From Paracoccaceae bacterium (GTDB lineage Bacteria > Pseudomonadota > Alphaproteobacteria > Rhodobacterales > Rhodobacteraceae): a stretch of DNA of 64,000 bases. The stretch is from positions 248,001-312,000 of the forward strand of contig JALHOL010000006.1 of the NCBI GenBank assembly GCA_022843025.1. The letters run 5' to 3'. Of the stretch, positions 24,254 through 30,315 are shown piece by piece; position 1 is the first letter of the stretch, and each line of letters opens with the position of its first letter. The translations under genes were made by a program, and so were the position numbers. The notes under the pieces were generated by a model, which was given only the letters and a program-made list of their open reading frames with translations, searched no databases and had not been told where the DNA came from.

Positions 24254-24706
24254 ATGAGCGACAGCGATCTGGTCAAGCTCTATTCGGGCCGCATCCTCGA
24301 ATTGGCGGCGGATATCCCGCATCACGGCCGCCTGCCCGCCCCCGAAGGGACCGCCCGCAAACGCTCACCGCTTTGCGGATCGACGGTGACCGTGGATCTG
24401 ACGATGGCGGGCGACCGCATCGCCAGCTACGGCCAGGACGTCAAGGCCTGTGCCTTGGGTCAGGCCTCGGCCTCGGTCACGGGCCGTGTGCTGATCGGTT
24501 GCACCCGTGAACAGGTGTCGCAGGCCCGCACAGAGCTGGAGGCGATGCTCAAACGCGGTGGCCCGGTGCCGCAAGCCCCGTTTGACGGGCTCGAGGTGCT
24601 TCTGCCCGCCCGCGACTATGCCAATCGCCATGCCTCAATCCTGCTGGCGCTGGATGCGACGCTGGACGCGATGGATCAGGCCGCCAAGGCCCGCGCGGCG
24701 GGCTGA
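24254..24706 (+). CDS. NifU/IscU-type Fe-S scaffold-like protein, degenerate cluster site
   Basis: A 150 aa protein with the NifU_N/SufU fold pattern: LYSGRILELAADIPHHGRL at the start, then LCGSTVTVDLTM and VKACALGQASASV, which carry the first two cluster-site cysteines (about 41 and 66). Two features of working scaffolds are altered. The Asp after CG is replaced by Ser. The region that should carry the third Cys reads PARDYANRHASILLALDA, with no Cys. It may bind metal differently or have an accessory role rather than building clusters. It is divergent from hisI. Confidence 0.82.
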   Translation: MSDSDLVKLYSGRILELAADIPHHGRLPAPEGTARKRSPLCGSTVTVDLTMAGDRIASYGQDVKACALGQASASVTGRVLIGCTREQVSQARTELEAMLKRGGPVPQAPFDGLEVLLPARDYANRHASILLALDATLDAMDQAAKARAAG

Positions 24707-24724
24707 CACTTTTCCCCAAGAATG

Positions 24725-24757
24725 AAAAAACCGCCGCACGTCTTGCGACGGCGGCGG
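24725..24757 (-). terminator. Intrinsic terminator for the 40-aa membrane protein gene
   Basis: Read on the minus strand, a stem of 7 bp (24731-24737 with 24751-24757) plus an inner 4-bp stem closed by a GCAA-like loop is followed by six T (24725-24730 as A on the plus strand). Confidence 0.8.
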
Positions 24758-24853
24758 CAGTGGCGTTTCGTTCCGGTGGCGAATGGCAGGGCTGTCATCC
24801 GCGTGCCGCTTGGGGACAGGCACGGCCGGGAAACGGAGCGCAGGCAGAAAACG

Positions 24854-24976
24854 TCAGGCCGTGCCGAACAGATGCAGACAGGCAAAAAGCAGGGTGAACA
24901 GCGACACGACACCAATCGTGTCTTCCACCAACGTGGCGCGCGAACGGGCCAGAATATCCTTGATTTCGGTCAGCAT
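24854..24976 (-). CDS. Small inner-membrane protein (40 aa) behind a possible SOS box
   Basis: The start is ATG 24976, with a strong GGAGG five nt upstream; longer starts on the same frame lack a ribosome site. The product has a charged N-terminal helix (MLTEIKDILARSRATLVEDT) and one membrane segment (residues about 21-38, IGVVSLFTLLFACLHLFG) ending at TA. It stands as its own unit: a GAAC-N7-GAAC (SOS-type) element about 56-70 bp upstream and an intrinsic terminator downstream. I know no named family. By size, topology and the possible LexA site it could be a damage-induced membrane peptide, comparable in concept to Caulobacter SidA; this is inference. Confidence 0.7.
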   Translation of the reverse strand: MLTEIKDILARSRATLVEDTIGVVSLFTLLFACLHLFGTA

Positions 24977-25031
24977 CGTCACCTCCATGCTTCGTTGCTC
25001 ATTTGTTCTCATATTCCGGCGGGCCTGTAAA

Positions 25032-25046
25032 GAACTTTTTAAGAAC
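25032..25046 (-). promoter_or_regulatory. Possible LexA (SOS) box, GTTC-N7-GTTC
   Basis: On the minus strand the sequence is GTTCTTAAAAAGTTC, an exact match to the alphaproteobacterial LexA site GTTC-N7-GTTC. It lies 56-70 bp upstream of the 40-aa gene, overlapping a possible -35 (GTTCTT) that stands 16 bp before TATGAG. Eight fixed bases would occur about twice by chance in a window this size, so position and context carry the weight. Confidence 0.5.
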
Positions 25047-25141
25047 ATTTGAGATCATAGAGGGAACACGCCCGCCCTCAGACGTGCTGGAAGTGTGGCA
25101 GGGCCGTAAGCCCGGCAAGTCGATTTCGGGGAAGAAGGCCC

Positions 25142-29541
<4,400 letters not shown>

Positions 29542-29549
29542 TCAGCCGT

Positions 29550-30269
29550 TCAGCTTGCCGCCGCGATGGACACGCGACGATGCGCCACTTCCGGCACCGG
29601 ATCGCGCATCACATAGCCGCGCCCCCAGACGGTTTCGATGTAGTTGTCACCCCCCGTCGCCTCGGCCAGCTTCTTGCGCAGCTTGCAGATGAAGACGTCG
29701 ATGATCTTCAGTTCCGGCTCATCCATCCCGCCATAAAGATGGTTCAGGAACATTTCCTTGGTCAGCGTCGTGCCTTTGCGCAGGGAAAGAAGTTCCAGAA
29801 TCTGATACTCCTTCCCCGTCAGATGCACGCTCTTGCCGCCCACATCGACCGATTTCGCATCCAGATTCACATTCACCTGACCGGTGCGGATGATGGATTG
29901 GGAATGCCCCTTGGACCGGCGGATGATCGCGTGAATCCGCGCGATCAATTCCTCACGATGGAAGGGTTTGGTCATGTAGTCATCCGCGCCAAAGCCAAAG
30001 CCGCGGATCTTGTTGTCCGTGTCGTCGGACCCGGACAGGATCAGGATCGGTGTCTCGATCCTTGCAAGGCGCAGCTGGCGCAGAACCTCATGCCCGCTCA
30101 TATCGGGAAGGTTCAGGTCCAGCAGGATCAGGTCATAATCGTAAAGTTTCGCCAGATCGATCCCGTCTTCGCCCAGATCGGTGCAATAGACGTTCAGATT
30201 GGCATGTGTCAGCATCAACTCGATGCTCCGCGACGTCGCGGGATCGTCTTCAACCAGAAGTACTCGCAT
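29550..30269 (-). CDS. ctrA: Cell-cycle/flagellar master response regulator CtrA
   Basis: An OmpR-type response regulator of 239 aa from ATG 30269. The receiver domain has the acidic pocket LLVEDD, the phosphorylated Asp51 ([13 protein letters not shown]), and the Lys in [13 protein letters not shown]. The DNA-binding winged helix is [25 protein letters not shown] followed by [15 protein letters not shown]. CtrA is phosphorylated through CckA-ChpT; in Rhodobacterales it controls motility, gene-transfer-agent and related genes and is usually not essential. sciP lies directly upstream on the same strand, and a CtrA-like box lies in its own promoter region. Confidence 0.97.
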
Positions 30270-30315
30270 TTTACACTCCGTAAGGTCGCATAAGAACGAC
30301 TTTGCAGACCACTCA

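Follow-up and report, generated by a model that had tools for sequence, protein, structure and literature searches.

The locus and its transcription unit

The window, which is the whole 64,000-nucleotide stretch of DNA that was analysed, carries on its minus strand a coding sequence of 40 codons and a stop (MLTEIKDILARSRATLVEDTIGVVSLFTLLFACLHLFGTA; 24854..24976) for a small protein predicted to cross the membrane once. A ribosome-binding site, GGAGG (24982..24986, minus strand), is placed five bases 5′ of the ATG. Downstream, a region scan located a hairpin resembling an intrinsic terminator, with a run of T behind it (24730..24752, minus strand; 0.6 expected by chance), and the same scan found no consensus sigma-70 promoter. 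Going upstream on the minus strand, the gene order is recG, ligA and, beyond these, ctrA. The recG gene (25142..27250, minus strand; NCBIfam RecG, 1106 bits) is a conserved neighbour, and 165 bases separate its end from the start of the 40-codon gene. The 3′ neighbour is convergent and codes for a SufU-like protein, the match to which lies below its curated cut-off. The 40-codon gene therefore appears to be a stand-alone unit with its own putative promoter and terminator.

These features had been pointed out in an earlier note on this DNA, and they were recovered here: a minus-strand gene of 40 codons with its own GGAGG, a GTTC-N7-GTTC element 56–70 bp upstream (at 25032–25046 on the minus strand), a single membrane segment (one helix, residues 2–37, in the predicted structure), a downstream intrinsic terminator (the hairpin just described, reading from 24752 to 24730), and a position after recG and ligA, both of which are upstream on the same strand.

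A longer frame of 64 residues, beginning at 25048, was rejected as the true protein; it starts at the operator, and the start shared by the family is the methionine of the 40-residue protein. No RNA family scored above its gathering score between 24600 and 25200, the only sub-threshold match being Ocean-VII on the other strand, at 16.3 bits where its gathering score is 53.5. The ctrA gene (29550–30275, minus strand; NCBIfam CtrA equivalog, 431 bits) is just upstream of ligA and recG, so this cell-cycle master regulator and the candidate SOS gene are near neighbours in the window.

Operator sites and predicted control by LexA

LexA-like sites were scored at 127,962 positions on both strands of the window, using a matrix made from 55 lexA and recA sites alone. 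The best of them is O1, a LexA-type box (GTTCTTAAAAAGTTC; 25032..25046, minus strand; score 16.9) that extends from 70 to 56 nt before the ATG. Second in rank is O3, a degenerate third site (GTTCCCTCTATGATC; 25053..25067, minus strand; 11.5), which is upstream of O1 by 21 bp, centre to centre, and fourth is O2, an inverted site with one core mismatch (GTTGCTCATTTGTTC; 24994..25008, plus strand; 10.2). Three of the four best sites in 64 kb are, in this way, found within 75 bp. A conserved block directly after O1 contains the putative −35 element TTTACA (25026..25031, minus strand), and 17 nt further on is the putative −10 region GAACAA (25003..25008, minus strand), which belongs to a conserved GAGAACAA at nearly fixed spacing and is overlapped by O2. 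Since no consensus promoter scored, the −35 and −10 assignments are drawn from these conserved blocks.

The O1 box taken alone means nothing, because its counts match chance. The window has one GTTC-N7-GTTC, with 1.14 expected from shuffled sequence, and the motif is no commoner genome-wide (53 + 55, or 108 in all) than a reversed control (51 + 54, or 105); the caution in the earlier note that such boxes arise by chance was right in kind. What gives O1 its significance is conservation beside orthologues, and this was seen in relatives that had been chosen by their protein, 47 of 49 of which have an exact GTTC-N7-GTTC upstream of the gene. The 49 comprise the 29 best relatives, with the box in 28 (L025 being the exception), and 20 genomes that have the protein but fail a relaxed pattern made of the box and its downstream blocks, with the box in 19 (all except L272). 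The exact match of one relative (L014) is at the place of O3, and its usual O1 place reads GTTG in the first half.

The relaxed pattern occurs in 187 of 295 Rhodobacteraceae genomes, and the reversed-pattern control in none. Twenty genomes were examined that have the pattern with a profile match that is weak, unlisted or absent, and in all 20 a family-like frame follows it, the weakest scoring 18.3 bits. A stricter promoter pattern, scanned over 84,980 species with one genome each, matched at least 119 stretches. When 80 of these matches were examined in the reverse direction, 79 led to the 40-codon gene (weakest E value 7e-4, L186), and for the remaining one (L217) the DNA stretch ends before the position of the gene. 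Ruegeria, Sulfitobacter and Roseovarius are among the listed matches, and we take the matching records to be Rhodobacteraceae genera, or unresolved genomes of Rhodobacterales, Alphaproteobacteria or Pseudomonadota.

The relatives with O1 share more of the promoter than the box. In 47 of 48 (L272, which has the gene and no box, is left out of the operator statistics) the common sequence is roughly TTTGTTC.CAAATGTTCTCAAAAAGTTCTTTACA, about 14 variable bases, and then TGAGAACAAA..G.CAACA. Of these 47 relatives, 42 have an O2-type GAAC-N7-[GC]AAC after O1, and 40 have an intact GTTC as the half-site of O3 that adjoins O1. The spacer of O1 is more strictly kept than that of the boxes at lexA and recA.

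The same box marks known SOS genes. GAAC-N7-GAAC, which is GTTC-N7-GTTC read on the other strand, was found at 29 of 30 Rhodobacteraceae lexA loci, no more than 250 nt upstream of the match, and at 25 of 28 readable recA loci, at most 300 nt from the match (L092 and L104 were left out of the count on account of odd lengths). In the genome from which the window comes, lexA (C2:121220) and recA (C7:22309) are both preceded by boxes, as are frames matching UvrA, RuvB, ImuA, DnaE2 and photolyase; up to 300 residues of each frame were searched, and RuvB alone reaches its curated cut-off. One more boxed frame is presumably ImuB-like, the NCBIfam result being only a weak polymerase IV match. These targets come from 45 scanned loci and 69 scored cores of the 108 matches, and when the bare 15-base core is considered at least 26 of the 69 rank above O1. 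Gene and LexA go together only weakly, the gene being present in 212 of 253 good genomes with LexA and in three of seven without it (p = 0.019 with kinship ignored, and with too few genomes in the second group to weigh much).

Two other readings of the operator were considered. A chance box beside a meaningless short frame might be proposed on the grounds that 64 kb should contain roughly one such box, but the conservation of both frame and box across Rhodobacteraceae refutes it, and its probability is negligible. The sites could also belong to a different repressor that reads GTTC repeats, which would put the gene outside the SOS response. This would agree with the stricter spacer of O1 and with the A that precedes its second GTTC, a position at which the lexA and recA boxes mostly have T, as it would with a genome (G150; 3 contigs, 100% complete) that keeps both gene and box yet gave no canonical LexA match, just one stretch with 27% identity to the C-terminal part of LexA. 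However, the same A occurs in some lexA boxes (L084, L085 and L087), GTTC-N7-GTTC is itself the box at lexA and recA in these genomes, and it was a matrix of lexA and recA sites alone that placed O1, O3 and O2 at ranks 1, 2 and 4, making a different repressor very unlikely. The gene is, with high probability, under LexA control, and from the operator sequences we infer that LexA binds here and that the gene is induced by DNA damage.

Several other boxes in the same genome deserve mention. The top box among the scored loci of this genome (L304, C3:316050-318050; score 27.6) is near locus position 1010, 17 nt before a frame of 148 residues whose best match is to the C-terminal part of the DnaE2 model (944–1040 of 1047), and the N-terminal part of DnaE2 is encoded at C1:247417 behind a box of its own; the two are possibly a split or duplicated dnaE2. 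A photolyase/cryptochrome-like frame is located behind a good box at C2:148149 (L059; 23.2), in line with the SOS control of photoreactivation reported in alphaproteobacteria (PMC3323433). Another good box, at C7:6776 (L310; 20.9), has no clear gene assigned beside it. Two LexA-type boxes, C3:215104 and C3:215200 (L317; 14.4 and 19.6), are 96 bp apart and precede a frame that has a sunset domain and, weakly, matches of the thermonuclease type; it is possibly an SOS-controlled nuclease.

The protein family and its predicted structure

Searches with the single protein gave a match in 228 of the 295 Rhodobacteraceae genomes (E value of 1 or better), and a profile of 28 members gave one in 243, with one copy each (E value of 0.001 or better). 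Fifty-two genomes were without a profile match, and the three that were looked at (G056, G074 and G151) all carry a diverged copy. In a sample of 385 genomes from the class, E values of 6.5e-13 or better came from five genomes, all of them Rhodobacteraceae and the present one included, and 18 genomes of other families gave only weak matches (0.005 to 0.1) that were taken as noise. Because the strong matches are in the own family and those in other families are only weak, the gene family looks confined to Rhodobacteraceae. The link to recG is persistent, a same-strand recG ending less than 600 nt upstream of the gene in 133 of the 141 loci examined (of 150 loci, six without a family match and two with short upstream DNA were left out).

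A mobile origin was rejected, as neither 50,697 phage records nor 72,556 plasmid records held a match, although the query was one 40-residue member and so short a query makes for a weak test. The window protein has no match in Pfam or NCBIfam, and none in the PDB up to an E value of 1. The 28 members together gave a single weak match in Pfam (PhaG_MnhG_YufB, E value 0.029) and five PHROG families (0.037 or worse), all of which were dismissed as noise rather than relatives.

Members passing the threshold were obtained from 144 of the 150 loci (L217 and L272 are among the six dropped), and 103 of the 144 are exactly 40 residues long. The promoter pattern was the route to many of them, and the set therefore does not test the box independently. 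An aspartate at position 19 is invariant (144/144), L34 stands at 143/143 and G22 at 142/144, and strong conservation is also seen at P37 (130/137), L26 (135/144), L30 (125/144), T15 (115/137) and R11 (113/135); the window protein has F in place of P at position 37. The median dN/dS is 0.23 over 320 unsaturated pairs, out of 358 pairs of 40-residue members at 60% identity or more, a figure that is rough because synonymous change is near saturation. Matched by the profile once per genome in 243 of the 295 genomes, the 40-codon frame is a real gene family.

A hydrophobic stretch begins at about residue 20, and the net charge of residues 1–18 is approximately +1. After residue 20, K, R, D or E is absent from 134 of 140 members and present in six (the charge and helix-period statistics use 140 of the 144 members, those shorter than 36 residues being left out). 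From this distribution of charge and the positive-inside rule, the N-terminus is predicted to be in the cytoplasm. AlphaFold2 returned one helix covering residues 2–37 (mean pLDDT 88.7, pTM 0.50), and the product is almost certainly a single-pass membrane protein.

Conservation along the helix is periodic. For residues 9–35 the best angle is 98 degrees, with 51 of 20,000 shuffles as strong, and the corresponding numbers for residues 19–37 and 2–20 are 386 and 162 of 20,000. R11, T15, D19, G22, L26, L30 and L34 form one stripe on the helix. Since the conservation of the predicted helix is one-sided, we read the stripe as a surface for docking on a membrane partner and not as the mark of a pore-forming peptide.

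Possible action on cell division

Small membrane proteins that are induced by the SOS response or by DNA damage, and whose action is known, often stop late division. In the parts of the cited sources consulted, SidA of C. crescentus is described as an SOS-induced division inhibitor of 29 residues with FtsW as its target (PMC4211646, PMC13396833), and loss of lexA in Caulobacter leads to extreme filamentation through sidA (PMC12700426). DidA, of the same species, is a damage-induced small membrane protein that binds FtsN (PMC4211646). YneA acts on transmembrane segment 7 of FtsW, as has been tested, and SidA, SosA and ChiZ are placed on the same segment by AlphaFold 3 models whose confidence is not high (PMC13396833).

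The 40-residue protein resembles SidA in being very small, alphaproteobacterial, predicted to reside in the inner membrane and predicted to be controlled by LexA. SidA is the shorter of the two, whereas the present family is widespread in Rhodobacteraceae beside recG, and the two are likened by size, topology and control only. A likeness to YneA (B. subtilis), ChiZ (M. tuberculosis) and SosA (S. aureus) is that these are SOS- or damage-induced small membrane proteins blocking late division; YneA and ChiZ have a LysM domain and SosA an extended helix, according to the portion of that work consulted (PMC13396833), whereas the 40-residue protein ends a few residues past its membrane segment. A LysM domain is absent, the window protein having no Pfam match and no room after the helix, and a SulA-type domain was likewise absent in Pfam and NCBIfam, a membrane helix being predicted instead. 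DidA is also a small membrane protein, but it is described as controlled by DriD and independent of SOS, in contrast to the LexA-type operators of the present gene.

A SidA-like division brake is our best guess for the function of the gene, held with middling confidence. It is favoured because the size, predicted topology and predicted control all fit, and because no other division inhibitor is among the LexA targets identified in the own genome, which come from only part of its 108 boxes. In an undamaged cell, LexA dimers would occupy O1 by the −35 element, O2 over the −10 region and probably O3, keeping the promoter shut. Upon damage, RecA filaments would trigger LexA cleavage, and a short one-gene message would be made and translated into the 40-residue inner-membrane protein, whose one helix would have a cytoplasmic N-terminus. 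The face formed by the conserved stripe would dock sideways on a membrane partner, most likely the septal cell-wall machine (FtsW/FtsI/FtsN), and division would wait for repair to finish. Both the target and the block to division are guesses from analogy, and the complete statement, that of a LexA-repressed SOS gene whose one-helix product docks on the septal machine and delays division, has about an even chance of being correct. The earlier note had proposed a LexA-controlled analogue of SidA, and the two halves of this idea have fared differently. The LexA half is strongly supported, the box being kept across relatives together with a second box in inverted orientation and blocks that resemble −35 and −10 elements, and recurring at lexA, recA and repair genes. 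The SidA half is an analogy. The conservation proposed there as a check was found for the box (in the two sets of relatives and in the reverse test) and for the peptide (in the 243 genomes with a profile match), and the frame does not accumulate stops in relatives.

A LexA-controlled protein might instead act elsewhere in the membrane, for example on a transporter, on a membrane protease, on the kinases CckA and DivL of the CtrA phosphorelay or on part of the release of the gene transfer agent. A helix conserved on one side would suit any membrane partner, ctrA is close by in the window, and LexA is reported, in the part of the study consulted, to control cckA in R. capsulatus (PMC6473078). 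Against this, the SOS-induced single-pass proteins described in the consulted part of one paper act on FtsW or late division (PMC13396833), and a target outside the divisome is possible but clearly the less probable. A peptide of the TisB type, which would depolarise the inner membrane and make cells dormant, comes into question by its similar size and single hydrophobic helix. TisB of E. coli, a type I toxin paired with an antisense RNA, is SOS-controlled, and toxins of this type have charged residues in an amphipathic membrane helix. The membrane part of the present family is uncharged, with the six exceptions in 140 members given above, its conservation is limited to one face, as would suit binding to another protein, and no antisense RNA partner was seen at the gene, Rfam, which covers known RNA families only, giving nothing above a gathering score in 24600–25200. 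The likeness to TisB, a dormancy-inducing membrane toxin (PMC11575346, in the part consulted), is that of a small membrane peptide, and a TisB-like action is unlikely. A bolder version of the docking model is that the family represents a new class of SOS effector with its origin in Rhodobacteraceae, in which the conserved stripe, running from the cytoplasmic side (R11, T15, D19) through the membrane, would lock a membrane complex in an ‘off’ state and so couple damage to division, or to the CtrA and gene-transfer-agent programme, through a contact different from those of SidA, YneA and TisB; this we regard as rather improbable.

A search of the open-access literature (titles and abstracts, with most subscription papers and supplements outside its scope) found no paper describing the gene. 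A comparative study of LexA regulons from 2012 covers R. sphaeroides and Paracoccus denitrificans; the part consulted does not name the gene and notes LexA sites at recG of some alphaproteobacteria (PMC3323433), and the consulted part of a study of LexA in Dinoroseobacter does not mention it (PMC6473078). SOS-controlled small membrane proteins are an established kind. Judged by the literature searched, what is new is this family, together with its operator of two or three sites and its lasting association with recG.

An SOS-controlled division brake of Rhodobacteraceae is not named in that literature. If the proposed reading is true, most Rhodobacteraceae, among them the marine roseobacters and species of Rhodobacter, would have a clade-wide SOS checkpoint protein, one easily overlooked because it is only 40 residues long. 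With one candidate gene, its operators and its key residues named, the question is directly testable. The protein would also provide an independent case for the blocking of septal wall synthesis from within the membrane as a common way of stopping division after DNA damage.
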